Source: Actinomycetales bacterium (GTDB lineage Bacteria > Actinomycetota > Actinomycetes > Actinomycetales > Dermatophilaceae). Taken from it: a stretch of DNA of 56,812 nt. Positions 1 to 56,812 of this stretch are shown here, in pieces; position 1 is the stretch's first letter, and each line of letters begins with the position of its first letter. The stretch spans positions 1-56,812 of the forward strand of contig JAAYCP010000238.1 in the NCBI GenBank assembly GCA_012729695.1, read 5' to 3'. The notes below the pieces were generated by a model. It was not told where the DNA came from and made no database searches. It saw nothing but the letters and a program-made list of their open reading frames with translations. The translations under genes and the position numbers were made by a program.

Positions 1-4
1 CCAC

Positions 5-841
5 ATGAGCGAGCCGAGCCGCGCCCCGAGCCTCCGTGAGGTGATCGAGGTCCTCGAGGCCGCATACCCGGTCTCCACCGCCCAGTCCTGGGACCAGGTG
101 GGGCTCGTCACCGGCGACCCGGAGCAGCCGGTGCACCGGATCCATCTCGCGATCGACCCCACCCTCGCAGTCATCGACGAGGCCAGGGACGCGGGCGCGG
201 ACCTGCTCGTCACGCACCACCCGCTCCTCATGCGCGGGGTGAACAGCGTGGCGGTCACCTCGGCGAAGGGCGCCTCGGTGACGAACCTCATCGTCGCCGA
301 CATCGCGCTGTACGTCGCCCACACCAACGCGGACGTCGCCGCCGAGGGAGTATGCGTCGCGCTGGCAGAGGCCTGCGGACTCACCGACCTCGAGCCGCTG
401 GCAGTCGTCGAGGACCAGTTGCTGGGGCGGGTGGGTCGGCTTCCCGCCGAGATCACGCTGGCGGAGTTCGCCCAGGCTCTGGCCGGCGCCCTTCCCAGCG
501 CACCCGTCGGGATCCGGGTCAGCGGCCCGCCCGAGGCGACCGTCGAGCGGGTGGCCGTGCTCGGAGGCTCGGGGGACGACCTCTTCGACGCGCTGCGCGC
601 GAGCGGTGCCGATGTCTACGTGACGGCCGACCTGCGCCACCATCCCGCGCTCGAGGCGAGGGAGGAGGCCCGGGGGAGCGCTCCATACCTTGTCGACGCC
701 GGCCACTGGGCGAGCGAAGCTGTCTGGCTGCCCCGGGTCGCTGCCCTGCTGAGGGAGGAGCTGGGGGATAGGGTCGAGGTCGAGGTGAGCGACATCGTCA
801 CCGACCCCTGGACCTTCGTCGTCGGCGGGCAGCGGGTCTGA
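5..841 (+). CDS. Nif3-like dinuclear metal center hexameric protein
   Basis: 278-aa ORF; HTNADVAAEGVCVALAEACGL and VTHHPLLMRG motifs typical of the NIF3/YbgI family. Confidence 0.9.
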   Translation: MSEPSRAPSLREVIEVLEAAYPVSTAQSWDQVGLVTGDPEQPVHRIHLAIDPTLAVIDEARDAGADLLVTHHPLLMRGVNSVAVTSAKGASVTNLIVADIALYVAHTNADVAAEGVCVALAEACGLTDLEPLAVVEDQLLGRVGRLPAEITLAEFAQALAGALPSAPVGIRVSGPPEATVERVAVLGGSGDDLFDALRASGADVYVTADLRHHPALEAREEARGSAPYLVDAGHWASEAVWLPRVAALLREELGDRVEVEVSDIVTDPWTFVVGGQRV

Positions 842-912
842 CCCGTCGCGCGCCCTCGCCTCGCCGATCGAGCACCACAAAGACAAGAGACCGAGAGAGA
901 GCGCAAGCACCC

Positions 913-1653
913 GTGAAGGCAGCACCCCACCAGCAGCAGCGGCTCCTCGACCTGCAGGCCATCGATACCCGTCTGGACCAGATCCAGCACGCGCGGACCC
1001 ACTTGCCCCAGCTGGCCGAGCTGGCCGACCTGAACCAGAAGGCCGAGGTCCTGCGCGCGGAGCACATCCGGGTCAAGACCGCCCATGACGACGTCCAGCG
1101 CGAGCTGCGCAAGTCCGAGGCCGACGTCCAGCAGGTCCGCGACCGGGCCGCCCGGGACGAGCAGCGGCTCGCCTCCGGCACGGGAACGGCGAAGGACCTG
1201 CAGGCCCTCCAGCGTGAGCTGGAGTCGCTGGCGCGCCGCCAGAACGAGCTGGAGGAGATCGAGCTCGAGGTGATGGAGCGGGCCGAGGCGATCGAGTCCG
1301 ACCTCGCCGAGCTGCAGGCCGGTCTGGACCGCCTCGACGCGCAGATCGCCGAGGTGGAGGCCGCGCGGGACGAGGCGCTGGCCCGACTCGACGAGGAGGC
1401 CGCGAAGCTCCTTGCGCCGCGGGCCTCGGTCGTCACCCAGGTCGGCGAGGAGCTCGTCGCCCTGTACGAGAAGATCCGCGCGAGCAGCGGTGGGCTCGGT
1501 GCCGCCCCCCTCCGCCAGCGCCGGTGCCACGGTTGTCAGCTCGAGCTCAACGCCGTCGATCTCAACCACATCAAGGCGGCTGCCGAGGACGAGGTGATCC
1601 GCTGCGAGGAGTGCCGCCGCATCCTGGTGCGCACCCCCGAGTCCGGACTCTGA
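913..1653 (+). CDS. C4-type zinc ribbon / coiled-coil protein
   Basis: long coiled coil followed by CHGCQLEL...RCEECRRILV zinc ribbon; next to Nif3 and RNase H as in many actinobacteria. Confidence 0.9.
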   Translation: MKAAPHQQQRLLDLQAIDTRLDQIQHARTHLPQLAELADLNQKAEVLRAEHIRVKTAHDDVQRELRKSEADVQQVRDRAARDEQRLASGTGTAKDLQALQRELESLARRQNELEEIELEVMERAEAIESDLAELQAGLDRLDAQIAEVEAARDEALARLDEEAAKLLAPRASVVTQVGEELVALYEKIRASSGGLGAAPLRQRRCHGCQLELNAVDLNHIKAAAEDEVIRCEECRRILVRTPESGL

Positions 1654-1660
1654 CCTGCCG

Positions 1661-2902
1661 ATGGGTCGTTCGCTCATCGTCTATGCCGACGGCGGCTCCC
1701 GGGGGAACCCGGGCGTCGCGGGGTACGGCGCCGTCGTGCTCGACGGGCGCTCCGGTGCGCTGCTCGCCGAGCGTGCGGAGCCCTTGGGCATCGCGTCCAA
1801 CAACGTCGCGGAGTACTCCGGAGTGATCGCCGGCCTGCGCGCAGCCGCGGAGATCGACCCCGCGGCCTACATCGTGGCGCGGCTGGACTCCAAGCTCGTC
1901 GTCGAGCAGCTCTCCGGGCGCTGGAAGATCAAGCACCCGGACATGCGCCGGTTGGCGCTCGTGGCCCGCGACGTGGCCCAGGAGATCTCGGCCGCTGGTG
2001 GGTCGGTGACCTACGAGTGGGTGCCGCGCGAGGAGAACACCCTCGCCGACCGACTATCCAACGTCGCCATGGACGGGGAGACCATCACCGTCGACCACTG
2101 GCGGGCCAACGCAGAGGCCGACGCCGTACCAGAACGTGACAATAGGAACGTTCTGGTACACCCGCCTGAGGGCTCTGATCCCCGGGAGTCACGGGATGGT
2201 CCAGGGGGTGAGGACGCCGAGGCAACCCCTGAGGTGCAGGAGGTCACCGTCGCCCAGGCGATGGGCACGGGAGTCGGGACGCGACCGGGTCGCGGCGCGG
2301 TCACCCGGCTGGTCCTCGTCCGGCACGGGGTGACGGCCTTCACCGAGGCGGGGCGCCTCGATGGCCGGGGTGGGTACGACCCGCCGCTGTCGGAGCGCGG
2401 TCGGGCCCAGGCGGAGCAGGCCGCCCGCTCGGTCGCCGGACTCCTCAATGGGGCGCCGGCCCGGCTCATCACCTCCTCCCTGGCCCGGGCGGTCCAGACC
2501 GGCGCCGTCATCGCCGAGGCGCTCGGCGTCGAGCCCGAGGTCGACGCCGACTTCGACGAGCAGAACTTCGGTGACTGGGACGGCGCGGCCATCTCAGACC
2601 TCATCGAGACCGCGCCGGACGATCTGCTCCGGTTCCGGCACGACCCGGAGTATGCGCGGCCGGGCGGCGAGACCCACCTGCAGATCCAGGAGCGGGTGAG
2701 CGCCGCATACGAACGGGTCATCGCGGCCGGCGGGACCACCGTCGTCGTCTGCCACCGCAAGCCGATCATGTGCGTCATGGCGCACATCCTCGGCCTCACG
2801 CCGGAGGCGTCCTGGCGGCTCGCCGCCGCACCCGGCTCGCTGCACGCGATCGAGGTGTGGCAGGACGGCACGACGTCCATCGCGTTCACGAACCGGACCT
2901 GA
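1661..2902 (+). CDS. bifunctional RNase HI / histidine (acid) phosphatase
   Basis: N-terminal RNase HI (IVYADGGSRGNPGVAGYG), C-terminal phosphoglycerate-mutase-like domain (LVLVRHGVTAFTEAGRLDG); Rv2228c-like architecture. Confidence 0.92.
   Translation: MGRSLIVYADGGSRGNPGVAGYGAVVLDGRSGALLAERAEPLGIASNNVAEYSGVIAGLRAAAEIDPAAYIVARLDSKLVVEQLSGRWKIKHPDMRRLALVARDVAQEISAAGGSVTYEWVPREENTLADRLSNVAMDGETITVDHWRANAEADAVPERDNRNVLVHPPEGSDPRESRDGPGGEDAEATPEVQEVTVAQAMGTGVGTRPGRGAVTRLVLVRHGVTAFTEAGRLDGRGGYDPPLSERGRAQAEQAARSVAGLLNGAPARLITSSLARAVQTGAVIAEALGVEPEVDADFDEQNFGDWDGAAISDLIETAPDDLLRFRHDPEYARPGGETHLQIQERVSAAYERVIAAGGTTVVVCHRKPIMCVMAHILGLTPEASWRLAAAPGSLHAIEVWQDGTTSIAFTNRT
2126..2159. repeat. perfect 12-bp inverted repeat with 10-nt spacer inside the linker of the RNase H/phosphatase ORF
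   Basis: GTACCAGAACGT-gacaatagga-ACGTTCTGGTAC read directly. Confidence 0.85.
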
Positions 2903-2938
2903 CCGACGCGCCTGACCCGCCACTCCTACCCTGTTGGG

Positions 2939-4123
2939 GTGGACATAACACAGGGTGATGCCTTCCGTCCCGACACCCTCGCCGTGCGGGCCGGGCTCAT
3001 GCGCAGCGGGTTCGACGAGACCGCCGAGGCGGTCTACCTCACCTCCGGCTTCGTCTACTCCTCGGCCGAGGAGGCCGAGGCGGCGTTCAAGGACGAGATC
3101 GAGAAGTTCATCTACTCGCGCTACGGCAATCCCACGGTCGCGATGTTCGAGGAGCGGATGCGGACGATCGAGGGGGCGGAGGCGGCCTTTGCCACGGCGT
3201 CCGGGATGGCCGCCGTCTTCGTCGCTCTCGCGGCGCTGTGCGGTGCCGGTTCGCGACTCGTCGCCTCTCGTGCCTTGTTCGGGTCCTGCTTCGTCATCGT
3301 GGACGAGATCCTGCCCCGCTGGGGGGTCGAGACCGTCCTCGTCGACGGCCCCGACCTGGCCCAGTGGGAGGCGGCTCTGAACCGCGAGACGACCGCTGTC
3401 TTCTTCGAGACGCCGAGCAACCCGATGCAGGAGCTCGTCGACATCGCCGAGGTGTCCCGGCTGGCGCACGCCGTCGGTGCGAAGGTCGTCGTCGACAACG
3501 TCTTCGGGACGCCGGTGTTCTCCAAGCCGCTCGACCACGGCGCCGACATCGTCGTCTACTCCACGACCAAGCACATCGACGGCGGAGGACGCGTACTCGG
3601 TGGTGTCGTCCTGGGGCTGAAGCACTTCATCGAGGGTCCGGTGAAGAACCTCATGAGGCACACCGGTCCGTCGATGTCACCGTTCAACGCGTGGGTCAAC
3701 CTCAAGGGTCTGGAGACACTCCGCCTGCGGGTGGAGCAGCAGGCGCGGTCGGCGCTCGCGCTGGCCGAGTACCTCGAGTCCCACCCTCGGGTCACCGATG
3801 TCCGCTACCCCTGGCTGCCGTCGCACCCGCAGTATGCGCTGGCCCAGCGACAGATGCTCGGCGGCGGCACGGTGGTCACCTTCACCATCGACGGCGGGAA
3901 GGCCGAGGCCTTCAAGGTGATGAATGCCCTTCGCATCGTTGACATCTCGAACAACCTGGGGGATGCCAAGTCGCTGACGACGCACCCAGCCACCACCACG
4001 CACCGGCGGCTCACCCCGGAGGCGCGGGTAGCCGCGGGGATCACGGACGGCACCGTGCGGATCTCTGTGGGGCTCGAGGACACCGAGGACCTGCTCGCAG
4101 ACTTCGAGCAGGCGCTGCGCTAG
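2939..4123 (+). CDS. metZ: O-succinylhomoserine sulfhydrylase
   Basis: Cys/Met metabolism PLP family; VVYSTTKHIDGGGRVLGG lysine motif; GTG start. Confidence 0.9.
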   Translation: MDITQGDAFRPDTLAVRAGLMRSGFDETAEAVYLTSGFVYSSAEEAEAAFKDEIEKFIYSRYGNPTVAMFEERMRTIEGAEAAFATASGMAAVFVALAALCGAGSRLVASRALFGSCFVIVDEILPRWGVETVLVDGPDLAQWEAALNRETTAVFFETPSNPMQELVDIAEVSRLAHAVGAKVVVDNVFGTPVFSKPLDHGADIVVYSTTKHIDGGGRVLGGVVLGLKHFIEGPVKNLMRHTGPSMSPFNAWVNLKGLETLRLRVEQQARSALALAEYLESHPRVTDVRYPWLPSHPQYALAQRQMLGGGTVVTFTIDGGKAEAFKVMNALRIVDISNNLGDAKSLTTHPATTTHRRLTPEARVAAGITDGTVRISVGLEDTEDLLADFEQALR

Positions 4124-4641
4124 GACGTCGGCAGCTCGCCTGTTCCATTGTTCAGGTGTGACCCGGCGACGAGAGTCGTCGGCTCATGGGTGACAGGGAA
4201 GCTCACCGACGCGGCGATGAAGCACGCCTGGCTGGCCTCGTGGTGCAGCCTGGGCATCAGGTCGACCTGAGAGGGGTCGGTGATGGTGACGACCGGCCGC
4301 AGGACGACGCCGGTGAAGCGTCCGCCGATGCCTTCCTGAACCATCGTTCCGGTGGGGGAGTCCTCGTAGGCGACGACGGTGACGCCGTGCATGACGGCGA
4401 CATGGAGGAACGAGAGCAGGTGGCACTCGGAGAGGGCGGCGACGAGGAGCTGCTCAGGATTCCACCGGGTCCGGTCGCCGCGGAAGGTCGGGTCGGAGCT
4501 CAGCTCGAGCGCCGGAGGTCCGCCCTCCGTGTCCGCCCTGGCCACGACATCACGGTCGTAGTCGCGGTACCCGCTCGTGCCGGTGCCGCGGTTCCCCGTC
4601 CAGGTGAGGCTCAGGGCATACGTATGCGTCGTGCCGGCCAT
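4120..4641 (-). CDS. OsmC family protein
   Basis: WNPEQLLVAALSECHLLSFLHVA...HHEASQACFIAASV with conserved OsmC cysteines. Confidence 0.88.
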   Translation of the reverse strand: MAGTTHTYALSLTWTGNRGTGTSGYRDYDRDVVARADTEGGPPALELSSDPTFRGDRTRWNPEQLLVAALSECHLLSFLHVAVMHGVTVVAYEDSPTGTMVQEGIGGRFTGVVLRPVVTITDPSQVDLMPRLHHEASQACFIAASVSFPVTHEPTTLVAGSHLNNGTGELPTS

Positions 4642-4738
4642 GCGAGAACTGTGCCATGGGTGCCGGCCGGGCTCGAGTCGTATTGTCGCTGGCGCCTTGT
4701 CGCGCGCGGACCCGCTGGGCTCGCCGCGCAGCGTCTGG

Positions 4739-5485
4739 TCAAGGCGGGGTGACAGCCAGTGTCCAGGCCCTGCCCTGACCGGCCGGGGGAGTGAGTCGCA
4801 CCTCGAAGCGCTCGCCGACCACGTCCGCCAGCGCGGGCACCGTGCGTGGATCAGCGCCCACCTCGACCAGGTGGCGGGTCACCAGACCTCGCGTGTGCTT
4901 GGCCATGTGCGAGGCCCCAGGGACCGCGATCGCGACCCACCGCTCAGCCCGCTCCGGCCCGGGCTTCCAGGCTGCCGCATACGCAGCGCTGCGGCAGTCG
5001 ACGATGCAACCCTTCCCGGCTGCCTGCGGAAGGACCTGATCCAGGTGGGACCGCCAGGCCCGCCCGAGTGATCCGACGCCCGGCAGGTCGACGCCCATCG
5101 ACAGCCGGTAGGGCGCGACCTCGTCGCTGAGCCGCAGCGCCCCATAGAGGGCCGAGACCACGACGATCCACCGCGTCGCCCGACGCTTCGCAGCCGGCTC
5201 GAGCGAGGCGATGTCCAGCGCGTCGTAGAGGACACCGGTGTACACCTCGCGCGCCGGGGTGGCAGGAGCGGCCTCGAGGTCGAGGTTGCGGGCGATCTCG
5301 TCGAGGAGGTTGGGGCTGACTCCGAGCAGCCTTGGCGCGTCGGGCGATTGGCTCACCTGCGCAAGAGCCGCAGCGACCGTGCGGCGCTGCTCGGTGAGCT
5401 CCGGGAAGGACCAGGAGTTGGGGTCTGCGGGCCGTCCCCGACGCCGACCGGTCTTGGACTCCGACGGGGGCAGCAGGATCAGCAC
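4739..5485 (-). CDS. yaaA: YaaA/DUF328 family peroxide stress protein
   Basis: VLILLPPSESKTG N-terminus; start moved from the ORF-track ATG at 5599 to GTG 5485, which lies 7 nt after a TATGGT -10. Confidence 0.8.
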   Translation of the reverse strand: MLILLPPSESKTGRRRGRPADPNSWSFPELTEQRRTVAAALAQVSQSPDAPRLLGVSPNLLDEIARNLDLEAAPATPAREVYTGVLYDALDIASLEPAAKRRATRWIVVVSALYGALRLSDEVAPYRLSMGVDLPGVGSLGRAWRSHLDQVLPQAAGKGCIVDCRSAAYAAAWKPGPERAERWVAIAVPGASHMAKHTRGLVTRHLVEVGADPRTVPALADVVGERFEVRLTPPAGQGRAWTLAVTPP

Positions 5486-5553
5486 GCGCAACACCATAGG
5501 TGGCAGGGCACGTGATCGGATCATGGGGTCGGCGCAGTGGCTAGCGTGGGAGT

Positions 5554-6051
5554 ATGCCCACCACCCTGCTCGTCGTGCACCACAGTCCCAGCGGGTCACT
5601 CCAACGACTCACCGACGCGGTGATCGCCGGGGCTCGTGATGACGCGATCGAGGGGGTCGACGTGGTCGTCCGGGAGGCACTGAGCCCCGATGCGGAGGAG
5701 CTGCGCCGGGCCGACGCCGTCGTCCTCATCACGCCGGCGAACTTCGGGTACATGAGCGGTGCGCTGAAGCACTACCTCGACACCGTGTTCCTCCAGGTGG
5801 GGGGAGCGCTCGGTGACGACGGCAGCGCGGCCTCCGGGGGCGCGCCCGGCAAGGGGCTGCCGTTCGGGCTGCTCGTCCACGGGCGGTACGACACGACCGG
5901 TGCGGAGCGGTCGGTGCTCTCCATCGTCCAGGCTCTGGGCTGGCGGCAGTCGGCCGACGTCCTCTCCATCCTGGGAGATGTGGAGCAGGAGCACCTCGAC
6001 GCCGCCTACGAGCTCGGGGCAACGCTTGCGGTCCTGACCCTGGAGGACTGA
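5554..6051 (+). CDS. flavodoxin / NADPH-dependent FMN reductase family protein
   Basis: TTLLVVHHSPSGSLQRLTDAV flavin-binding loop; TPANFGYMSGALKHYLDTV. Confidence 0.82.
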   Translation: MPTTLLVVHHSPSGSLQRLTDAVIAGARDDAIEGVDVVVREALSPDAEELRRADAVVLITPANFGYMSGALKHYLDTVFLQVGGALGDDGSAASGGAPGKGLPFGLLVHGRYDTTGAERSVLSIVQALGWRQSADVLSILGDVEQEHLDAAYELGATLAVLTLED

Positions 6052-6108
6052 TCCGCCGCACGGCCCGGTGGCGCTGCGTCAACGCTGTGCGCCGGTAGGT
6101 TCTCCGGT

Positions 6109-7602
6109 ATGCCCAAGCGTCACATCTCAGCCGGGACACGCGCCGACGAGCCCCTCGATGTCAACGACACTCTCCGGCAGCGGTTCGCCCGGATCCGGGA
6201 GGAGCACGAGGTCCCGGGTGCCTTCCCAGAGGAGGTCGTGACCGAGGCACGGGCGGTCAGCGAGTCGGGAGCGATCGGGCTGCCCACGCGGGATGAGACA
6301 TCGATCCCCTTCATCACCATCGACCCACCCGGGGCGATGGACCTGGACCAGGCGCTGCACATCGAGGAAGAGGCCACGGAGCACGGGGTCGGCTTCCGGG
6401 TGAGGTATGCGATCACCGACCTCCCCGCATACGTCCAGCCGAGCGGAGCGATCGACGCCGAGGCCCGCCTGCGGGGGCAGACCATCTATGCGCCGGACCT
6501 GCGCGTACCGTTGCACCCCCCGGAGCTGAGTGAGGGCGCCGCCAGTCTCCTTCCGGGACAAGCCTGCCCAGCATTCGTGTGGGACATGCGCCTGCGCCCC
6601 AATGGCCAGGTCGCCGACGCCACGGTCTACCGGGCCATGGTCCGCTCGGCGGGGCGCACCGACTACCAGACCGTCCAGGACCAGGTCGACAGCGGCACCG
6701 CCGAGGGGACAGTCGCACTGCTGGCGAAGGTCGGCCCTCTGCGGATCGCCCGCGAGCTCGCCCGCGGGGGAGCGAGCCTCCCGATGCCCGAGCAGGTCGT
6801 CATCAAGGACTACGGCGGGTCCTACACCCTCCAGTTCCGTCCGCCGCTGTCCAGCGAGGACTGGAACGCGCAGATCTCCCTGCTCACCGGCATGGTCGCG
6901 GCGGACATCATGCTCAAGCACAAGGTCGGCATCCTGCGGACGCTGCCCAAGCCGAACAAGGAGTCGCTCGCACGTTTCCGGCGCAGCGCCAAGGCTGCGG
7001 GAGTCCGGTGGCGTCCGAAGCAGAGCTACGGCACGTTCCTCCGGACCCTGGACCGGACCAATCCCAGGCACCTCGCCCTCATCTTCGAGGCGACGACGCT
7101 CTTCCGGGGGTCGGGTTACACGGTGATGCTCGGGGAGGTGCCGGAGCAGACCATCCATGCCGCAGTCGCCAGACCGTATGCGCACGTCACCGCTCCCTTG
7201 CGCCGACTCGTCGACCGGTTCGCGCTGACCCTCTGCGCCGCCCTCGAGGCGGGAGAGGAGGTACCTCAATGGGTGACTGAGGCGCTGCCGACTCTGCCGG
7301 GCATCATGGCCTCGTCGACCCAGCGCTCCAACGGTGTCGAGCGGGACAGCGCCGACGCGGTCGAGGCAGCGGTCCTGCGCGACCGGCTCGGTGAGCTCTT
7401 CGAGGTGGCAGTGGTCGACCGCATGAAGCGCAAGAGCGGCTCGGAACTCATCGTCAAGCTCATCGATCCCGCCGTCATCACCAAGGCAGACGGCAGCGCC
7501 CGACTCGGTGCAATGGTCGCCGCCCAGCTCACTCAGGCCGTCGTGGAGACCAGCACGGTGCGGTTCGCCGTCGCGTCAGGCCAGGAGCTGGTCGCCGGCT
7601 GA
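6109..7602 (+). CDS. RNB domain-containing ribonuclease
   Basis: TIDPPGAMDLDQALHIE and AVARPYAHVTAPLRRLVDRF RNB catalytic motifs. Confidence 0.92.
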   Translation: MPKRHISAGTRADEPLDVNDTLRQRFARIREEHEVPGAFPEEVVTEARAVSESGAIGLPTRDETSIPFITIDPPGAMDLDQALHIEEEATEHGVGFRVRYAITDLPAYVQPSGAIDAEARLRGQTIYAPDLRVPLHPPELSEGAASLLPGQACPAFVWDMRLRPNGQVADATVYRAMVRSAGRTDYQTVQDQVDSGTAEGTVALLAKVGPLRIARELARGGASLPMPEQVVIKDYGGSYTLQFRPPLSSEDWNAQISLLTGMVAADIMLKHKVGILRTLPKPNKESLARFRRSAKAAGVRWRPKQSYGTFLRTLDRTNPRHLALIFEATTLFRGSGYTVMLGEVPEQTIHAAVARPYAHVTAPLRRLVDRFALTLCAALEAGEEVPQWVTEALPTLPGIMASSTQRSNGVERDSADAVEAAVLRDRLGELFEVAVVDRMKRKSGSELIVKLIDPAVITKADGSARLGAMVAAQLTQAVVETSTVRFAVASGQELVAG

Positions 7603-8179: not shown

Positions 8180-11100
8180 ATGGCAGGACCAATGGAATGC
8201 TCGCTGTGCACGTCGGTCAATCCGCCTGACGCCAAGTTCTGCGTCGGGTGTGGTGAGCCGCTGCAACCGACCTGTCCGGTGTGTGGCCACAACGTGCCGC
8301 CGGACGCGCGCTTCTGTCCCAACTGCGGTCACCGTCTGCTTGCCGCACCTGAGGTGGACGAGGCGCCCTCGGACCTGACCCGCTACCTTCCGGCGACACT
8401 CCTCGCCAAGATCGAGGCGGCCCGCAGCGGACGCGCGATGGCGGGGGAGCGGCGCCTGGTGACGGCCCTCTTCGCCGACGTCACCGGGTCGACGTCCGCG
8501 GCCGAGCAGCTCGACCCGGAGGACTGGGTGGAGGTGATCAACGGCGCCTTCGAGCGGATGATCCGCCCGGTCTACCGGTACGAGGGAACCCTGGCCACCC
8601 TCCAGGGAGACGGGGTACTCGCCTTCTTCGGGGCCCCGATCGCTCATGAGGACGATCCGGAACGGGCGGTTCTCGCGGCTCTCGAGATGATCGATGCCAT
8701 AGCTCCGTACTCACTGCGCATCGAGAAGAAGTGGGGCTTCCCCATCCGGATCCGGGTGGGTGTGAACACCGGGCTGGTGGTCGTCGGCGACGTCGGCTCG
8801 GACCTGCGGCTCACCTACACGGCCATCGGCGATGCCATCAACGTCGCGGCACGGATGGAGCAGACGGCGGCGCCCAACACGGTCCAGGTCAGCGAGGACA
8901 CCTACCGGCTCATCGCGCCGCTCTTCGAGTTCGAGGACCTGGGCCAGACGACGGTGAAGGGGAAGTCGGCACCGATCCAGACCTACCGCCCGCTGCGCTG
9001 TCAGGTCCGACCCGGGCCGACGCGGGGTCGTGGATTCTCTTCGCCGCTCGTCGGCCGAGAGGCGGAGACCCAGGTGTTGCGCGACCTCACCGATCGTCTC
9101 TCGGAGGGGCGTGGCGGCATCTGCGCGGTCATCGGTGAGGCGGGTCTGGGGAAGTCGCGGCTCATCGCAGAGTTCTCCGAGGAGCTCGAAGCCGAGGGCC
9201 GACGGGGCCCCTGGTGGTCATCGAAGCCCGTGTACGTGGAGGGTCCGGGACCAACCACGATGGGGTGGGCCGTCGGCAGGTCGTTCTCGTACAACAGCTC
9301 GGTTCCCTACGGGGTGGTCGTCGACCTCCTCAGCACGTGTCTCGAGCTGCATCCGGAGGACACCGCGCACGTGCGACGCTCGAAGCTGACCGACACGGTC
9401 GAGACCCTGTTGGGAGAGGACGCGGAGACCCACCTTCCCTATCTCGCACAGCTCCTCGGCATCGACCTCGACACCGAGGAATCCAGGGCCGCCTCGCACA
9501 TGGCGGCGCCCATGCTCCAGCGGCGCACGTTCTCGGCAGTGACGGCACTCATTGAGGCTGCCGCCCTCCGCCGCCCGCTCGTCGTCGTCATCGAGGATCT
9601 CCACTGGTGTGATGCGATCAGCCTCGCGTTGCTCGAGGAGCTGATGGCTGTGACGGAGCGGGCTATGCTCATGCTCCTCGTCACGATGCGTCCGGACCGC
9701 GACCGGCCGTCCTGGCAGTTCCACGAGACCGCCGCTCGAGAGTATGTCCACCGTTATACGCCGGTCTTCATCGAGCCGCTGGAGGCGGCCGCCTCGGCGC
9801 AGATGCTGTCGCAGATGCTCGGTGGTGACTTCGAGCCGGACCTCGCCGACGCACTCATCACCCGGGCGGAGGGCAACCCCTTCTATCTCGAGGAGCTGCT
9901 GGGTTCCCTCCTCGACGCTGGGTCGCTCGTCGAAGAGGACGGTTGCTGGCGGATCACCGATGCGGGGGCCCGGATCGGCCTCTCGCCGACCGTCGCGGGG
10001 CTGCTCATCTCCCGCCTCGACAGTCTCGACGAGGGAGGTAAGACCGTCGCCCAGATCGCATCCGTCATCGGGCGTGAGTTCCGACTGTCGGAGGTGCAGT
10101 ACCTGCTGGATCCCGCGATCGACCTCGAGGTGGCCCTGGCCGATCTGGAGCGCCGGAACCTGCTGGAGGAGCGGGCCAGGCTGCCGGAGCGAAGGTATGC
10201 CTTCAGGCACGTCCTCCTCCAGGAGAGCGCCTACCAGTCGATGCTGAAGCGGGACCGCCGCAACCTGCACGCACGGATAGCGGATCACCTCATCGCAGAG
10301 GGCTCCGACGACGTCTCGAGCATTGCGCGCCACCTGACCGAGGCGGAGGAGCTCGCGCGCGCCATGCCGTACCTCGTCGAGGCCGGCGACCGGGCCGCCC
10401 GGGCGATGTCGCTCGCCGATGCGATCCGCTTCTACACGCAGGCGCTCGACGCCGCGGTTGAGGGAACCGACCCTGAGCTGATCCGGCGGGCGCACGAGGG
10501 GCTGGGCAACGCATACACGCTCATCCCGGACCTCACGAGGGCGGCGTCGAGCTACCAGGAGCTGTTGGAGTTCGGCAAGGAGCGATCGGAACCGACCGTC
10601 CAGGTCACGGCCCTGAACCGACTCGGCTTCACCGCGGCTGCGCTGGGGGGTGACTACGAGCTGGCCACCGACTACCTCGAGCGGGCTCGCAAGCTCGCCG
10701 AAGCGCATAACGACGATCTCGGTCTGGCCGAGTACCACATGAACAGCTGCATGATCGCGACCGGGCAGGGGGACATGGATCGAGCGGCCGCTCACGACGC
10801 CGAGGCCTCGGCGAGCGGAGCGGCCGCGGGATCGATGCGGTTCCGGATGCAGGGGTTGATCCAGCGCGCCATCTCGCTCGCGAGCGCCGGTCGCTACGTC
10901 GAGGGGGAGCTCGCTCTTGCCGAGGCTACCCGGGCGGCCGAGGAGTCCGGGAACGAGGTGTTCCAGGCGGCTGTGAGGGCGGTCGCCTCGCCCGTCTACC
11001 TCCTGAGGCAGGGTCGGACCGCGGAGGCCTATGAGGGGGCACGCTCCGGATTCGCGGCCATGAAGAAGCAGGGGTCGTCGTGGGTGGCGGATGCGGCCAT

Positions 11101-13150: not shown

Positions 13151-13274
13151 GACCTCACGTTATCCCTCTGACGGGTGCAGGAACCTGTTCCGCGCTGTCC
13201 ATTCGGGCGGCCCGGCGATGCGACTCTCGGATCGGCTGTTCCGGCGGTGTGCGTACACGGCTACGGTCTGGGGT

Positions 13275-13928
13275 ATGCGGATCACTCACCTCGGTCATGC
13301 CTGCCTGCTCGTGGAGATCGCGGACCAGCGGATCCTCATCGATCCGGGCGCCTTCGCCGGCGACTTCCTCGGCCTGCGCGATCTCGACGCCATCCTGGTG
13401 ACCCACCAGCACGTCGACCACCTCGACCCGGTCCGGCTCCCGGAGCTCGTGCGCGCCAACGGTGAGGTGCCGATCTGGTGCGACCCGCAGAGCGTCTCCA
13501 TCCTCGAGGAGGTCGGTCTGCCGGCCACGGCTCATGACGGATCGACGGTGACACTCGGGGAGGTGCTCATCGAGCCGGTGGGGGAGATACACGCCCTGAT
13601 CCACGAGGACATCCCGCGCATCACCAACGTCGGCGTGCGGATCAGCGCGCCGGGAGAGCCGACCTTCTTCCACCCGGGCGACGCGCTCGATGCCGACCCA
13701 GGAGAGGTCGACGTGCTCGCCTTCCCGCTCAACGCCCCCTGGCAGGCCAGCCGGGACATGACCGGGTTCCTACGACGGCTCGCCGCACCGCACGCGGTCC
13801 CCATCCACGACGCGCTGCTGAGTCTGACCGGACGCAACCTCTACCTGAAGCAGGCCGGCGACCTGGGGAGCAAGGACACCCGCATCCACGACCTCGCCGA
13901 CGGCAGTCCGTGGCGGGTCGAGGCATAG
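13275..13928 (+). CDS. MBL-fold metallo-hydrolase
   Basis: MRITHLGHACLLVEI...VTHQHVDHLDP...FFHPGDAL; start moved to ATG 13275. Confidence 0.88.
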   Translation: MRITHLGHACLLVEIADQRILIDPGAFAGDFLGLRDLDAILVTHQHVDHLDPVRLPELVRANGEVPIWCDPQSVSILEEVGLPATAHDGSTVTLGEVLIEPVGEIHALIHEDIPRITNVGVRISAPGEPTFFHPGDALDADPGEVDVLAFPLNAPWQASRDMTGFLRRLAAPHAVPIHDALLSLTGRNLYLKQAGDLGSKDTRIHDLADGSPWRVEA

Positions 13929-15308: not shown

Positions 15309-15370
15309 ACCGTTGAGTCTAGGTGGACGCGGTGGGCGTCCCTCACACCCGACGTGGCGAGGAGGCCGAC

Positions 15371-42048: not shown

Positions 42049-43302
<1,254 letters not shown>

Positions 43303-43303
43303 C

Positions 43304-45865
43304 ATGCGAGTCCCACTTGACTGGCTGCGGGAGTACGTCGACGTCCCCGCCGACGCGACCGCCGAGTCGGTTGCGGCCGACCTCGTCCGGGTCGGGCTCG
43401 AGGAGGAGGCCTACCACCGTGCCGGGGTGACCGGTCCGCTCGTCGTCGGGCGGGTCCTCACCCTCGAGAAGGAGCCGCAGAAGAACGGCAAGGTCATCAG
43501 CTGGTGCACCGTGGACGTCGGCGACGCGAACGGCACCGGGGAGCCGCAGGGGATCGTCTGCGGTGCCCACAACTTCGAGGTCGGTGACCTCGTGCCCGTC
43601 ATCCTGCCCGGAGGCACGGTGACGACCCCGCAGGGTCCGATGGAGGTGACGGCGCGCAAGACCTACGGCCACGTCTCGGCGGGCATGATCTGCTCCGAGC
43701 GCGAGCTCGGCCTCGGAGACGACCACGAGGGCATCATGGTGCTCACCGAGCGGTTCGCGGACGAACCCGACGTCCTGGCCCGGCTCGAGCCCGGCGCCGA
43801 CGCCATCCCGCTCCTCGGTCTGGACCGGGAGACCGTCGAGGTGAACGTCACCCCGGACCGCGGCTACTGCTTCTCGATCCGCGGTATCGCCCGGGAGTAC
43901 TCGCACTCGACGGGTGCGGCCTTCACCGATCCGGTCCTCGCCCTGTCCGCTGCGGCACCGGCGTCGAACGACAGCGGGTACGGCGTGCGACTGGAGGACG
44001 AGGCGCCTCTCAAGGGTCGCCCGGGGTGCACCCGGTACGTCGCCCGGATCGTGCGGGGCATCGATGTCTCCGCGCAGACCCCGAGCTGGATGCGGATGCG
44101 GCTGACCGAGGCGGGCATGCGCCCGATCTCCCTGCCGGTCGACGTCACCAACTACGTGATGCTCGGGCTCGGGCAGCCGTTGCACGCCTTCGACGCCGGA
44201 AGGCTGCAGGACGACATCGTCGTGCGCCGCGCCCGACCGGGCGAGACGATCACGACGCTCGACAGCGTCGTGCGCTCGCTCAGTACCGAGGACCTCCTCA
44301 TCACCGACGGCGGTCACACCCCGATCGCCATCGCGGGCGTGATGGGAGGTGAGGACACCGAGGTCAGCGACAGTACGACCGACGTCCTCCTCGAGTCCGC
44401 GACCTTCGATGCGGTGTCCATCGCCCGCACGGCCCGCAGGCACAAGCTGCTGAGCGAGGCGTCCAAGCGCTTCGAGCGGGGCGTCGACCCCGAGCTCGCT
44501 CCGGCTGCCGCCGAGCTGGCGATCCAGCTGCTCGTCCAGTACGGCGGCGGCACCGTCGATCCCGGCGTCACCGACGTGGGCACCCCCAGGCCGGTCGTGA
44601 CGATCGACCTGGACCCTGCATACCCGGCCCAGTTCGTCGGGGTGCACTACCCCGGTGACGTCGTGCGTCGGATCCTCACCGAGATCGGGTGCACCGTCGA
44701 GGAGGTGGAGGCACCTCGGGGGACGCGCTTGACCGTGACCCCGCCGTCGTGGCGGCCGGACCTGAGGACCCCGCCCGACCTCGTCGAGGAGATCGCCCGG
44801 ATCGACGGGTACGACAAGATCCCCTCGATCGTGCCGACCCCGCCGAGCGGCAGCGGCCTGACCCGGAGCCAACGTGGCCGACGGATCGCCGCCGAGATAC
44901 TCGCAGGCCAGGGCCTCAGCGAGGTCTGGAGCGCACCCTTCGTCGGAGACGCGCGCCACCAGGCCTTCGGCTGGGACGTCGACGAGGCCCGGGCGCGCAC
45001 AGTTCGCCTCCTCAACCCGCTCTCGGACGAGCAGCCGCTGATGCGGATCTCATTGCTCTCGACGATGGTCGACGCCCTCCTGCGCAACGTCGCCCGCGGC
45101 ACCAAGGACGTCGGGCTCTTCGAGATCGGTCTCGTCACCGCCCTGACCGGACCGCAGCGGGTCGCGCCGACCGAGGAGGTCGGCGTGCTGCCGAGCGCGG
45201 ACACCCTCGCCGCGATCCACGCCGCGATCCCGGAGCAGCCGAGGCACCTCGGCATCCTGCTCGCCGGCGATCGTGACCGCGCCGGGTGGTGGGGGAGCGG
45301 ACGACCCGCCGAGCTCGGAGACATCCTCGAGCTCGTGCGAGCCCTCGCGGAGGGTCTCGGTCCAGCCGTGTCCCTCGAGAGCGCCGCCGACGTCATGCCC
45401 TTCCACCCCGGACGGTGCGCGGCCGTGCATCTCGAGGACGGCCGGCTGCTGGGCCACGCCGGTGAGCTGCACCCGAAGGTCGTCGCAGCGATGGGCCTTC
45501 CCGCCCGGACCCTGGGCGCCGAGCTCGACCTCGACATGCTCATCGAGGCCGGGTCGAAGACCGTGCGTGCCCGCCCGGTCATCACCTCGCCGGTCGCCTA
45601 CAGCGACGTGGCGCTCGTCGTCGACGAGGCCGTCACGGCAGCAGCTGTCGAGGCGGCCCTGCGGGCCGGGGCAGGGGAGACGCTCGAGGACGTGCACCTC
45701 TTCGACCTCTACCGCGGTGACCAGATCGACGAGGGCAAGAAGTCGCTCGGGTACCACCTCACGTTCCGTGCCCCCGGGCGCACGCTGACGACCGAAGAGG
45801 TCTCCGCGCTGCGCGACGCTGCCGTCGCGGCCGCAGCACAGGAGGTCGGCGCGGTCCAGCGCTGA
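43304..45865 (+). CDS. pheT: phenylalanyl-tRNA synthetase beta subunit
   Basis: [35 protein letters not shown]; tRNA-bd, B3/B4, B5 and FDX-ACB regions. Confidence 0.97.
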
Positions 45866-45950: not shown

Positions 45951-47435
<1,485 letters not shown>

Positions 47436-47439: not shown

Positions 47440-48587
47440 GCGTCACCGTCCCCGCCGGCTTCCGCGCTGTCGGAGTCACCGCCGGCCTCAAGGCATCGGG
47501 CAAGCCCGACCTGGCGCTGGTCGAGAACCAGGGGCCGGACTTCCACGCCGCCGGCGTCTTCACCTCCAACCGGGTATGCGCGGCTCCCGTCACGTGGTCA
47601 CGGCAGGTCCTCGCAGACGGCCGGGTCGACGCGGTCGTGCTCAACTCCGGTGGCGCGAATGCGTGCACCGGTGCCCAGGGCTTCCAGGACACCCACCGCA
47701 CCGCGGAGCTCGTGGCGGAGGTTCTCGAGGTGAGCGCCGGGGACGTCGCGGTGTGCTCGACGGGCCTCATCGGCGAGCTGCTGCCGATGGACAGGATCGA
47801 GGCGGGCATCCGCCAGGCCGCGCCTGCGCTGAGTGTCGACGGCGGGGAGGACGCCGCCGCGGCGATCATGACGACCGACACGGTCCCCAAGACCGCTGCC
47901 GCGCAGCGCGGGGGATGGTCCGTCGGTGGCATGGCCAAGGGTGCCGGCATGCTCGCCCCGGCGCTGGCCACGATGCTCGTCGTCGTCACGACCGACGCCG
48001 TCAGCACGCCTGAGGAGCTCGACGCGGCTCTGCGGCAGGCGACCGCGGTGACGTTCGACCGGATCGACTCCGACGGCTGCCAGTCGACCAACGACACCGT
48101 GCTGCTTCTCTCCTCAGGTGCGAGCGGCATACGGGCGGATCAGGAGGAGCTCGCGGCTACGGTGACCGAGGTCTGCGCGAGCCTGGCCCGCCAGCTCATT
48201 GCAGACGCCGAGGGCGCCAAGCACGACATCGCCATCGAGGTCGCGGGCGCAGCCTCGGTCGACGATGCGCTCGAGGTGGGCCGCGCGGTGGCCCGCAACA
48301 ACCTCTTCAAGTGCGCCGTCTTCGGCAACGACCCCAACTGGGGCCGGGTGCTCGCGGCAGTCGGGACCACGGGTGCCGCCTTCGAGCCCGACGACCTCGA
48401 CGTGAGCATCAACGGCGTGGAGGTGTGCCGCGGGGGCGGGGTGGGGGAGGACCGCTCGCTCGTCGACCTCTCCGGCAGGGAGGTGCACGTCCGCATCGAT
48501 CTGCATGCCGGCGAGGACACGGCGACGATCTGGACCAACGACCTGACCCACGACTACGTCCACGAGAACAGCGCGTACTCGACATGA
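47436..48587 (+). CDS. argJ: bifunctional ornithine acetyltransferase/N-acetylglutamate synthase
   Basis: [23 protein letters not shown] self-cleavage motif. Confidence 0.96.
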
Positions 48588-49570: not shown

Positions 49571-50778
49571 CCCTGTCCGGCGACCTCCTGGAGCGCTACC
49601 AGCGCTCGCTCATCGGCGTCTTCGGCGTGCCGCAGCTCGTGCTGACCCGCGGTGACGGCTGCTACGTCTGGGACACCGAGGGCAAGCGCTACCTCGACCT
49701 GCTCGGTGGCATCGCCGTCAACACCCTGGGCCACAACCACCCCGCTGTCGTCGCGACGGTGTCCAAGCAGGCCAGCGAGATGCTGCACCTGTCGAACTTC
49801 TTCACCTCGCCGAGCCAGATCGCCCTCGCCGAGCGGCTCCTCGCCCTCAGCGGGGCGCCGGAGGGGAGCGGGGTGTTCTTCTGCAACTCCGGCGCCGAGG
49901 CCATCGAGGCGGCCATCAAGATGTCGCGCCGCACGGGCCGCACCCACATCGTCGCCGCGGAGGGCTCCTTCCACGGCCGCACGACAGGCGCGTTGGCCCT
50001 GACGAGCAAGGAGATCTACCGGGCTCCCTTCGAGCCGCTCATCCCCGAGGTCTCCTTCGTCCCCTACAACGACATCGACGCCCTGCGAGCGACCGTGTCG
50101 GACCGGACGGCGGCGATCGTCCTCGAGCCCATCCAGGGTGAGGGGGGCGTCGTGCCGGCCACCAGCGCATACCTGCTCGCTGCGCGGGAGCTGGCCGATG
50201 CCACCGGAGCACTGCTGGTCCTCGACGAGATCCAGACCGGGGTGGCACGCACCGGCGACTGGTTCGCGTTCCAGAGCGTGCCCGGCCTGATGCCCGATGT
50301 CATGACGCTCGCCAAGGGCCTGGGTGGCGGCGTGCCCATCGGTGCCGTCGTGGCCTTCGGCGAGCGGGTCCGGGGTCTGCTCACCCCGGGTCAGCACGGC
50401 ACGACCTTCGGCGGCAACCCGCTCGCGACGGCGACCGGGCTCGCAGTCCTGGACCAGATCGAGATCGAGGGGCTCCTCGAGCAGGCCCGGCTCGTCGGCG
50501 AGCACCTCGTCGACGCCGTTGCGGCACTCGGTGACCCACGCATACGCGAGGTGCGCGGCCGTGGTCTGCTGCGGGCCATCATCCTGGAGCAGGACGTCGC
50601 GCCCGCCGTCGCCGCGGCTGCGCGGGAGGCGGGCTTCATCGTCAATCCCGTGGCCCCCGCCGCCATCCGGCTGGCCCCGCCCCTCATCATCACGACCGAG
50701 CAGATCGACACCTTCGTGGCGGCTCTGCCCGGACTCATCGACGCGGCCACGGCTGCCGCACCCGCCACCGGAGGCTGA
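49567..50778 (+). CDS. argD: acetylornithine aminotransferase
   Basis: [14 protein letters not shown]...[12 protein letters not shown]...[12 protein letters not shown]...GGGVPIGA. Confidence 0.96.
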
Positions 50779-50780: not shown

Positions 50781-51730
50781 ATGACGCTGCGCCACTTCCT
50801 TCGCGACGACGACCTCACGCACGAGGAGCAGACCCTCATCCTCGAGCGCGCGACACACCTCAAGTCCGCCCCGTTCGAGAACCGCGCTCTGGCCGGACCC
50901 GAGGTCGTCGCGGTGCTCTTCGACAAGCCGACGCTGCGCACCCAGCTGTCCTTCTCCGCCGCGATCGCCCACCTCGGGGGCTACCCGATGGTCGTCGACG
51001 GCAACCTCGCCCAGGTCGGGGTGCGGGAGACCATCGCTGACGTCGCGAGGGTCCTCGGCAGGCAGGCCGTCGCGGTCGTCTGGCGGACCTACGGCCAGGA
51101 CCGGATCGAGGAGATGGCCGAGTATGCGCAGGTGCCGGTCATCAACGCCCTCACCGACGACTTCCACCCCTGCCAGATCCTCGCCGACCTGCAGACGATC
51201 CAGGAGAACCGGGGCGCGCTCCCTGGCCAGACCCTCGCCTACGTCGGCGACGGGGCCAACAACATGGCGCACTCCTACCTCCTCGGGGGGACGCTCGCCG
51301 GCATGCACGTGCGGATCGGCACGCCGCAGTCCCACCAGCCCAAGCCCGAGATCCTCGCGAGGGCGCAGGAGCTGGCCGCCCAGCACGGCGGGTCGGTGCT
51401 CGTCACCGACGACCCAATGGAGGCGGTGACCGGGGCCGACGCCGTCGCGACGGACACCTGGGTGTCGATGGGTCAGGAGACCGAGAAGGCGCAGCGTCAG
51501 GGCGAGGCGAGTCCCTTCGCGCGGTTCCAGGTGACGTCGGCGCTGATGTCGCACGCCGCCGCCGACGCGCTCTTCCTGCACTGCCTGCCGGCCTACCGGG
51601 GCTTCGAGGTCAGCGCCGAGGTCATCGACGGACCGCAGTCCGTGGTCTTCGAGGAGTCCGAGAACCGGCTGCACGCGCAGAAGGCGGTCCTGTCCTGGCT
51701 CGTCGAGCAGCACCGCGCTGAGGACCGGCC

Positions 51731-51734: not shown

Positions 51735-53670
<1,936 letters not shown>

Positions 53671-53692
53671 GCAGGGGGAGAGGTCTGGTTCC

Positions 53693-54325
53693 GTGAGCAG
53701 CACAGGCGGGGCGGGCGGGTTGAAGCCGGTCGAGAGGGACTGGCTCGCCCGGCCGGTCCTCGAGGTGGCTCCTGAGCTCCTCGGCTGTCACGTGACCGTG
53801 CGCGGCGTGACCGTCCGGCTCACCGAGGTCGAGGCGTATGCGGGTCAGGTCGACCCTGGATCGCACGCCTTCCGTGGGCCGACACCACGCAACGAGGTGA
53901 TGTTCCGCGAGGCAGGGCACCTGTACGTCTACCTCAGCTACGGCATGCACCTGTGCGCCAACCTCGTCACCGGGACGTCCGGAACCGCGTCGGCTGTGCT
54001 GCTGCGGGCGGGTGAGGTGGTGGACGGGCACGAGATCGTCGCCGCCCGCCGGGCGGGCATCCGGGAGCGGGACTGGGCGAGAGGCCCCGGCCGGCTCGGT
54101 GCCACGCTCGGCCTCACGCGTGCGGACAACGGCATCGACCTGTGCGCCGGCTCTTCTGAGGTCGCGCTGCTGCGACCCGGGAGCCGTCCCGACCCGGCTG
54201 TGATCCGGACCGGGCCGCGGGTCGGGGTGAGCGGCCCGGGTGGGCACGGTGACGCATACCCCTGGCGGTTCTGGCTCGACGGCGAGCCGACGGTGTCGGT
54301 GTACCGCCCCGGCCGTCTGTCGTAG
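53693..54325 (+). CDS. 3-methyladenine DNA glycosylase (AAG/MPG family)
   Basis: LARPVLEVAPELLGCHV...TEVEAYAGQVDPGSHAFRGPTPRNEVMFREAGHLYVYLSYGMHLCANLV. Confidence 0.93.
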   Translation: MSSTGGAGGLKPVERDWLARPVLEVAPELLGCHVTVRGVTVRLTEVEAYAGQVDPGSHAFRGPTPRNEVMFREAGHLYVYLSYGMHLCANLVTGTSGTASAVLLRAGEVVDGHEIVAARRAGIRERDWARGPGRLGATLGLTRADNGIDLCAGSSEVALLRPGSRPDPAVIRTGPRVGVSGPGGHGDAYPWRFWLDGEPTVSVYRPGRLS

Positions 54326-54418
54326 CAGTCATAAGCCTCTGGGCCGCCAGCACATCGTCGCGACGGTCATGTCGCTTTTCCGCTAGTCATCTACCTCGTC
54401 CGGGGTGAGGATGGAGGC

Positions 54419-56056
54419 ATGCATCGCGACCACGCCGCCTGTGTGCGAGCCGTCCGCACCAGGGACGCCCGCTACGACGGCCAGTTCATCACGGGGGTGA
54501 CCTCCACCGGGATCTACTGCCGACCATCCTGTCCAGCACGCACCCCGTCACCAACCAACATGCGCTTCTACCCCACGGCGGCCGCAGCCCACCGCGACGG
54601 GTTTCGCGCCTGCAAGCGCTGTCTGCCGGACGCCAGCCCGGGATCACCGGAGTGGAACGTCCGGGCGGATGTCGCCGCCCGCGCGGTCCGCCTCATCCGC
54701 GACGGACTGCTCGACCGGGCAGGGGTCCCCGAGCTCGCCGCGTCGCTCGGCTACAGCCCGCGGCACCTCGAGCGTGTGATGCGTGCCGAGATCGGCACCG
54801 GCCCCCTCGGACTCGCCCGGGCGCAGCGCGCGCAGACCGCGAGGACCCTCATCGAACGCACCCGGCTGCCGCTCTCGGAGATCGCCTGGGCCTCCGGCTT
54901 CGGGAGCATCCGCACGTTCAACGAGGTCGTCCAAGCGGTCTACGGCGCGAGCCCACGTCAGCTGCGGGCGCGGGCGGAGACCACCGGTCAGGGCACCGGA
55001 GGGGGCGTGAGCACCCGCGTCACCGGTCTCGCGAGCGCCCACACAACGAGTGAGAGCTCGAGCTCCTTCTCCACGGGCGGGCTCCTGTCCGTTCGTGAGC
55101 AACCAGGCGCCCCGGGCTACACGGAAGTGCCCGTGCGCCTGCCCTTCCGGCCGCCGATCGAGCCTCGGCAGCTCTTCGGCCACCTCGTCGCCACCGCCGT
55201 TCCCGGGGTCGAGGAGTGGACGGGGGACGCCTACCGACGCACGCTGCGACTCCCGCACGGTCACGGGATCCTGGCGGTCCACCTGCCGTCACTCGACGGC
55301 CGCCGCGCCGATGCCCGCCATCTCGACGGCACGCTCCACCTCGCCGATCTGCGCGACCTCACCGCCGGGGTCCAGCGAGCCCGCTGGCTCCTCGATCTCG
55401 ACGCCGACCCGCTGAGGATCGACGCGGTTCTGGCCAGTGACCCACTGCTGGAGCCCCTGGTCGCAGGGGCACCCGGGCGCCGCATACCGCGGACGGTCGA
55501 CCCCGACGAGCTGGCGATCCGGATCGTGCTCGGCCAGCAGGTGTCCACGGCCGCTGCGCGGACCGTGACCGGGCGGCTCGTCGCCGCTCTGGGGGAGAAG
55601 ATCGAGGACCCGGAGGGAGGACTGACCCACCTCTTCCCGGGGCCATCCGCGTGGGCCGGGGCGGGCGACGACGTCCTGCGCCTCCCGATGACGAGGGCAC
55701 GTGCGGTCAGGGCACTGGCAGGGGCCTTGGAGGAAGGCCTCGACCTCGGACCCGGGGCGGATTGGGCGGTCGCACGCGAGGCTCTCGCCGGCATCCCGGG
55801 CATCGGAGCGTGGACCGTGGAGGGCATCGTCATGCGTGCCCTCGGTGACCCCGACGCGTTCGTCGCGACCGATCTCGGGGTGGGCAGGGCCGCCACCGGG
55901 CTGGGGATCGCGACACCCCGCGCACTCGCCGATCGCGCGGAGCGCTGGCGCCCCTGGCGCGCGTACGCGGTCCAGCACCTCTGGGCCACCGGAACCCACC
56001 CCATCAACGACCTGCCTGACCCACGGCCACCCCTAGGCTCCGAGGAGATCTCATGA
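54419..56056 (+). CDS. alkA: Ada/AraC-AlkA fusion: methyl-sensing activator plus DNA-3-methyladenine glycosylase II
   Basis: Ada metal-binding GIYCRPSCPARTPSPTNMRFY...ACKRCLPD; AraC HTH; HhH-GPD ALAGIPGIGAWTVEGIVMRAL. Confidence 0.94.
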   Translation: MHRDHAACVRAVRTRDARYDGQFITGVTSTGIYCRPSCPARTPSPTNMRFYPTAAAAHRDGFRACKRCLPDASPGSPEWNVRADVAARAVRLIRDGLLDRAGVPELAASLGYSPRHLERVMRAEIGTGPLGLARAQRAQTARTLIERTRLPLSEIAWASGFGSIRTFNEVVQAVYGASPRQLRARAETTGQGTGGGVSTRVTGLASAHTTSESSSSFSTGGLLSVREQPGAPGYTEVPVRLPFRPPIEPRQLFGHLVATAVPGVEEWTGDAYRRTLRLPHGHGILAVHLPSLDGRRADARHLDGTLHLADLRDLTAGVQRARWLLDLDADPLRIDAVLASDPLLEPLVAGAPGRRIPRTVDPDELAIRIVLGQQVSTAAARTVTGRLVAALGEKIEDPEGGLTHLFPGPSAWAGAGDDVLRLPMTRARAVRALAGALEEGLDLGPGADWAVAREALAGIPGIGAWTVEGIVMRALGDPDAFVATDLGVGRAATGLGIATPRALADRAERWRPWRAYAVQHLWATGTHPINDLPDPRPPLGSEEIS

Positions 56057-56577
56057 CCAGCACCCCGTTCCTCACCGAGCCGGTCGGCGCGCTACGCCAC
56101 ACGCAGGTGCAGACCGCGTTCGGCGAGTTCACGATCGTCGCCGACGATGCCGCCGTCACCGCGGTCTACTTCCCTGGGAACGAGCCGGACGACTCATGGG
56201 GTGAGCCGACCACCCCGGACGACCATCCGGTCCTGGCCCGCGCCGCCTCCGAGCTGCGTGAGTTCCTCGCCGGGGAGCGGACCGAGTTCGACGTCCCACT
56301 GCGGCCCGTGGGGACCGACTTCCAGCGCCAGGCCTGGTCCGCGCTGATCCAGATTCCGTACGGGCAGACGCGCTCCTACGCGCAGCAGGCCGCGGTCATC
56401 GGTCGCCCGAGCGCGGTGCGCGCAGTGGGCGCCGCCAACGGGCGCAACCCCATCCCGGTCATCATCCCGTGCCACCGCGTCATCGGGTCGGGAGGGACCT
56501 TGACCGGGTATGCGGGGGGCACCGAGCTCAAGGCCCGACTGCTCGAGCTGGAGTCGGGCCAGGCGAGCCTCATGTAG
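56053..56577 (+). CDS. ogt: methylated-DNA--protein-cysteine methyltransferase
   Basis: IPYGQTRSYAQQAAVIGRPSAVRAVGAANGRNPIPVIIPCHRVIGSGG. Confidence 0.95.
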   Translation: MTSTPFLTEPVGALRHTQVQTAFGEFTIVADDAAVTAVYFPGNEPDDSWGEPTTPDDHPVLARAASELREFLAGERTEFDVPLRPVGTDFQRQAWSALIQIPYGQTRSYAQQAAVIGRPSAVRAVGAANGRNPIPVIIPCHRVIGSGGTLTGYAGGTELKARLLELESGQASLM

Positions 56578-56812
56578 CACCCGATCGGGGACCGCTGCGT
56601 CTCGGGGAGCCGGGCTCCGGGGAGCCCGCCTGCTGGAAGCCGTAGGCGCCGGCGTCGACGCACATGGCAGGATCGATCGAGCACGTGGGGTGCGGGTCTC
56701 CACACCGCGCGGGCACCCGTCCGACTCGCAGCGAGGGAGGGACCTCGGCTGACGTGGCGGACGACTGACCTGACCTGACGACATCCACTCACGACCCGAG
56801 GACGGCAGAACC

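Follow-up and report, generated by a model that had tools for sequence, protein, structure and literature searches.

A probable DNA-uptake-sequence-like system with lineage dialects in Actinobacteria

A family-wide motif and its most probable reading

The stretch of DNA analyzed here (hereafter the window) comprises positions 1..56,812 of contig JAAYCP010000238.1 (assembly GCA_012729695.1), from an Actinomycetales bacterium, and is crowded with the short asymmetric word GTATGCG, which is one dialect of a motif distributed across its GTDB family. According to our analysis, the motif probably belongs to a DNA-uptake-sequence-like system with dialects in Actinobacteria, a reading to which we assign a probability of roughly 0.7; the comparisons are best read as GTATGCG, with its long form GTATGCGGTG, being the genus dialect of a family-wide uptake sequence that was ancestrally GTATGCCG(YG). 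Neisseria and Haemophilus choose DNA for uptake by means of "self" tags, and the reason for self-specific uptake is a long-standing question. We know of only two families, both Gram-negative, for which self-specific DNA uptake is established, and of no report of the self-tag trait outside those groups. Our literature search covered open-access work, with subscription journals and preprints outside its scope, and returned no report of the motif, nor of uptake sequences in Actinobacteria. We also lean, a little less firmly, toward a more specific form of this reading, according to which a DNA uptake sequence (DUS) system with at least five dialects would have originated independently in Gram-positive Actinobacteria (Knoellia, Phycicoccus, Ornithinimicrobium, Flexivirga, Pedococcus, and others), would be read by a Flp/Tad and not a type IVa pilus, and would be the first beyond Neisseriaceae and Pasteurellaceae.

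Abundance and whole-word maintenance

An exact recount of the window gave 33 GTATGC and 31 GCATAC, in agreement with the preliminary description, where about 33 and about 31 had been counted by eye. That most copies extend to GTATGCG/CGCATAC (29 and 25, 54 in total) and that same-composition controls are scarce (7 CTATGC and 0 GTATGG) had been noticed as well; the example positions given there are correct to a few bases, except that 50528 is really 50540. The predicted genes of the window hold 51 GTATGCG, against 6.3±1.9 (maximum, 11) in 100 within-gene synonymous shuffles and 5.8±1.9 (maximum, 11) in shuffles that also preserve the next-base context. Since the shuffles give about 6 copies against the 51 observed, protein sequence, codon usage, and simple codon context are excluded as the cause, as is dipeptide usage; the shuffles do not reproduce the counts, and the earlier claim that the signal lies in the DNA and not in protein or codon choice is borne out.

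Across the 3.04-Mb draft genome, GTATGCG occurs 1036+935 = 1,971 times (counts are quoted as two strands), against 132+133 = 265 for the control word, the motif reversed, so that the excess anticipated genome-wide does hold. Three congeners have the excess of GTATGCG(GTG) in common (1,368-2,328 copies each), and the long form in the window's genus, GTATGCGGTG, reaches 291+319 = 610 copies against 3+5 = 8 reversed controls (genome G003). The suggestion of a genome-wide DNA motif, for which uptake had been the first role named, is well supported.

An order-3 Markov model with the motif masked predicts 3.9 copies of GTATGCCG in 400 kb of Phycicoccus elongatus, where 305 are found (78-fold), and in genome G010 the excess is 486-fold. 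The specificity extends over 8-10 bp with constraint at every position, and the flanks carry information at -1 and +8/+9 (GTATGCCGYG). When the motif and its three one-base neighbors are summed, the class lies 5- to 44-fold above expectation at each of the 8 positions in P. elongatus, and the neighbors of GTATGCCG are on average not depleted. The motif is therefore kept as a whole word and not by mutation at one site, since a one-base change shifts copies within the class and cannot lift the class total.

Dialects and distribution across the family

Genomes of this GTDB family of soil and sludge Actinobacteria carry about 1 motif copy/kb, in spellings that differ by lineage: GTATGCG(GTG), GTATGCCG, GTATGACG, GTATGGCG, and GAATGCCG, the core common to the GTATGNCG/GAATGCCG forms being G.ATG.CG. 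Unbiased k-mer and whole-genome counts show that most other genera of the family are without GTATGCG and that many have GTATGCCG instead, at 1,000-4,700 copies. Examples are G010 (2376+2348 GTATGCCG versus 186+202 controls) and G020 (1266+1269 versus 49+50), while GTATGACG is abundant in G029 (987+967 versus 36+51) and GAATGCCG in G015 (1561+1574 versus 19+8); the GTATGGCG dialect was found by k-mer counts in G007 and G029. Some genomes combine spellings, with both GTATGCCG and GTATGCG in G059 and two or three forms in G006 and G007. Comparable enrichment was seen in 0 of the 58 genomes from other families of the order and, outside the family, in none of the 395 genomes sampled across the class.

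In the pheS region of named genomes, the motif is present in Knoellia, P. elongatus, Ornithinimicrobium, Flexivirga, Metallococcus, Pedococcus, Serinicoccus, and Ornithinibacter and absent from Janibacter, Nostocoides sp. Soil756, Phycicoccus endophyticus, Dermacoccus, Kineosphaera, and Streptomyces. On a tree of PheS+PheT, 7-8 motif changes are required and motif carriers occur on all the main branches of the family, for which one old origin followed by several losses would be the simplest reading, the clustering of labels alone being no proof. In the same tree the window's genus is sister to P. elongatus and the PHYC1 bin; because both of these use GTATGCCG, GTATGCG is probably derived relative to it.

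Three further enrichments were encountered. The nearest genome outside the family, G434 (family f45), has a mild GTATGCCG excess (94+76 versus 9+18 controls). In all three species of the motif-less Janibacter, CCCCCTTC/GAAGGGGG is found 9-13 times per 20 kb, about 10-15 times expectation, possibly a different signal, and 21 kb of Allobranchiibius sp. CTAmp26 contain 16 copies of GTACGCCG (6x), which may be a further dialect of the family motif.

Site conservation and rewriting in place

Sites were compared in alignments of 21-kb syntenic regions between species that are 75-82% identical; these comparisons overlap, and the figures are descriptive. Conservation is seen in 103 of 182 comparisons (57%) for GTATGCCG sites and in 45 of 257 (18%) for one-base neighbors, and between two Knoellia 11 of 13 GTATGCCG sites are kept. 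Against motif-less relatives, the conservation of GTATGCCG sites falls to 0/180, versus 45/254 for neighbors. For a few permuted control words, the corresponding figure is 38 of 89, control rates differing by word. GTATGCC sites of the relatives align to GTATGCG of the window in 3 of 14 cases for P. elongatus and 3 of 8 for MS_R1_22, which is far above chance given less than 1 copy/kb; because of this, the alignments indicate that the dialect is partly rewritten in place.

Strands, genes, and hairpins

In P. elongatus, GTATGCCG is balanced between the strands (152 versus 153), with no heterogeneity among 20 stretches round the chromosome (chi2, p=0.95), and the spacing of copies is near random. 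About three quarters of the copies (224/305) lie within genes, although density is higher in intergenic (1.14/kb) than in genic (0.68/kb) DNA, and copies within genes have an orientation bias relative to the reading frame (138 versus 86). Such features of orientation and genic placement are likewise reported for known uptake sequences (PMC2346458). Close pairs are strongly biased: in 22 genomes, 1,036 inverted pairs of the form GTATGCCG-N(2-30)-CGGCATAC stand against 226 tandem pairs, whereas random orientation predicts tandem pairs at twice the inverted number. Many close inverted pairs have long complementary stems and resemble intrinsic terminators, with T-tract ends in only a few examples. 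Separately, P. elongatus has a motif desert at 1.76-1.78 Mb (2 copies/20 kb versus a mean of 15, P ~3e-5), which contains core genes (glnA/glnE-like) as well as a Mutator-family transposase.

Comparison with known uptake sequences

In Neisseria, inverted DUS pairs occur in terminators, and the close inverted hairpin pairs observed in the present family are alike in this respect. The DUS of Neisseriaceae is an asymmetric word of 8-10 bp, present at ~1,000-6,000 copies/genome on both strands, with lineage dialects built on a conserved core; two of these can coexist in a genome, and some family members have none (Frye et al. 2013, PMC3630211). The present motif is like it in length, asymmetry, abundance, occurrence on both strands, dialects, two-dialect genomes, and motif-less members, and differs from it in its sequence, in its Gram-positive actinobacterial hosts, and in the machinery, which is a type IVa pilus there and would be a candidate Flp/Tad pilus with ComEA/EC here. 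The uptake signal sequence (USS) of Pasteurellaceae has an asymmetric core at ~1/kb genome-wide, constrained flanks, and two subtypes by clade. All of these have a counterpart in the present family, with its genome-wide asymmetric core at ~1/kb, constrained flanks, and clade-wise variants, although the sequence is another one and the letters GCGGT common to the g1 dialect and the USS are probably a matter of chance.

Competence machinery

ComEC was found in 139 of the 148 genomes searched, and each of the 21 com loci examined contains both ComEA and ComEC. The type IVa pilus was rejected as the uptake machinery, PilM being nearly absent from the family. Instead, an orthologous tad locus encoding TadA-B-C, Flp, TadE, TadF, and TadG, mostly adjoining prfB, is present in every motif-bearing genome where the locus was located; it is complete in most of them, contig or stretch ends cutting a few, and the comparison leaves aside G016, G017, G043, G047, G058, and G085, where the prfB-linked locus was not located. 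A different tad locus exists in G010, G034, and G053, and the locus in question is intact or nearly so in G010 and G034. Transformation of Micrococcus luteus needs ComEA/ComEC and Flp/Tad genes (PMC4322843), of which the present family has orthologous sets, although that report describes no uptake sequence in this species. In the motif-less genome G071, tadC is split by a ~37-kb insertion (contig 1, ~271.4-308.6 kb), while its motif-bearing congener G027 is intact; this is a single case. The insertion carries a serine recombinase and an rve-type integrase/transposase, and attack of this kind on competence genes is reportedly discussed in the literature.

Proposed mechanism and its weighing

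The uptake reading supposes that, during natural transformation, some DNA-binding competence component favors motif-bearing fragments, the likeliest candidates being a minor pilin of the Flp/Tad competence pilus and ComEA. Motif-bearing DNA of close relatives would then be preferentially taken up and recombined. Such preference would spread and maintain copies at permissive sites by molecular drive, whether or not selection for kin DNA also acts; a shift of receptor specificity would lead to copy-by-copy rewriting of the motif into a new dialect, and loss of competence to its decay. While we infer that uptake is sequence-specific and that a receptor and a drive underlie it, the features expected of an uptake sequence are found directly: abundance, occurrence on both strands without polarity, hairpin pairs, maintenance of whole words, and lineage dialects. 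ComEC, ComEA, and pilus genes are present too, which is necessary and not diagnostic.

Several observations weigh against this reading. The com/tad genes also occur in many motif-less genomes (G004, G011-G013, G025, G040, G042, G060, and G076), and therefore gene presence neither discriminates nor points to the receptor; neither ComEC, TadE, nor the prfB-linked tad locus predicts the motif by presence or absence, and a comparison of the tad and com loci yielded no gene that separates motif-bearing from motif-less genomes. Genome G049 bears the motif (1,624 copies) with a damaged tad locus, and the conservation comparisons above are not independent of one another. Copies have no bias toward gene termini (flat, p=0.67), whereas the uptake sequences of Pasteurellaceae are biased to gene ends (PMC2346458); all other sequence-level hallmarks of uptake sequences that were tested are present. 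As to the locus in G049, on contig 2 (stretch 1-7100) the prfB-linked tadA/B/C are mostly gone and type ISP restriction-modification and SIR2-like proteins are in their place.

If true, the uptake reading would mean a third, independent origin of self-specific uptake, with dialects, in-place rewriting, and repeated losses over dozens of genera, and it would open the drive-versus-selection debate to comparative testing. Natural transformation would be active and ancient in a soil and activated-sludge family that includes polyphosphate-accumulating Phycicoccus/Tetrasphaera relatives. For laboratory genetics, GTATGCCG or the fitting dialect might be added to transforming DNA as an aid.

Alternative explanations

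The alternative that survives best, though we deem it improbable, is an epigenetic or self mark, in which an orphan or restriction-modification methyltransferase would read the motif and methylated copies would be kept for their function. Asymmetric recognition sites do exist (Type III, BREX, and type ISP systems). The best-known precedent for an 8-mer at similar density is cyanobacterial HIP1 (GCGATCGC, PMC4390886), which is tied to orphan methyltransferases and is, like the present motif, a very dense octamer, lineage-wide and low in some members. However, HIP1 is palindromic with methylated cores, whereas the present motif is asymmetric, without a palindromic core, and has dialects and hairpin pairs; it is thus no palindrome of the HIP1 type, methyltransferases themselves not having been searched for. 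Moreover, a restriction site predicts avoidance and not a 10-480x excess, and methylation sites do not show dialects that differ in single bases with the rest kept, inverted hairpin pairs, or two dialects per genome.

Only slightly less credit can be given to a binding site for a nucleoid or regulatory protein under selection at each copy. Conservation, symmetry, and coevolved dialects would also result from it, but the largely intragenic position of the P. elongatus copies speaks against it, and it would not explain why copies pair up in hairpins or why the motif has been lost repeatedly with no other change to be seen.

A Chi-type or segregation octamer that modulates RecBCD/AddAB/AdnAB or guides FtsK/SMC appears more doubtful still. 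It would account for an over-represented, asymmetric, site-conserved octamer throughout the chromosome, but Chi and FtsK/AIMS (architecture-imparting) signals are polar, and the even strand distribution in P. elongatus is therefore evidence against Chi, KOPS (FtsK-orienting polar sequences), and other polar signals. Lineage dialects and repeated losses also fit poorly with an essential segregation signal, and the segregation and recombination options of the preliminary description are disfavored, strand skew being wholly absent.

The weakest candidate, with next to no probability and refuted as a sole cause, is a mutational or repair bias such as C-to-T change at TACGC by a process akin to very short patch (VSP) repair or by 5-methylcytosine (5mC) deamination at GTACGC: the window does hold only 17 GTACGC, about half of the 31-39 predicted by synonymous shuffles, as had been suspected, but the neighbors are not depleted as a group, the VSP/5mC signature of a product excess offset by precursor loss at a constant class sum is not seen, a one-site bias cannot produce the class sums found at all 8 positions, and motif sites are conserved between relatives.

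Motif copies in the window

GTATGCG copies form inverted pairs at 2650..2656 (+) with 2704..2710 (-) and at 27989..27995 (-) with 28045..28051 (+), and inverted hairpin pairs at 6405..6411 (+) with 6426..6432 (-) and at 40554..40560 (+) with 40589..40595 (-), the last of these being of the form GTATGCGGTG. The long form GTATGCGGTG also occurs on the plus strand at 14901..14907, 30488..30494, and 51922..51928, and one minus-strand copy, 42770..42776, lies within the pheS gene (42190-43302). Other GTATGCG copies on the plus strand are at 350..356, 3832..3838, 7176..7182, 12086..12092, 13273..13279, 16294..16300, 16350..16356, 18437..18443, 25819..25825, 26335..26341, 26755..26761, 30208..30214, 31876..31882, 34482..34488, 39396..39402, 42126..42132, 46789..46795, 47574..47580, 51122..51128, 53836..53842, and 56508..56514, and those on the minus strand at 61..67, 4976..4982, 10510..10516, 12467..12473, 12818..12824, 12989..12995, 15291..15297, 15763..15769, 16949..16955, 18038..18044, 23317..23323, 25679..25685, 29771..29777, 37045..37051, 41284..41290, 50166..50172, 50539..50545, 53211..53217, 54253..54259, and 55481..55487. 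The shorter GTATGC is found on the plus strand at 10195..10200 and 22999..23004 and, across the predicted starts of genes 5554 and 6109, at 5552..5557 and 6107..6112, respectively, and on the minus strand at 15305..15310, 23846..23851, 34895..34900, 44618..44623, and 48127..48132. Finally, at 4616-4628, close to a predicted gene start, a GTATGC copy (4616..4621, -) and a GTATGCG copy (4622..4628, +) adjoin and make up the two halves of the palindrome GCATACGTATGC.

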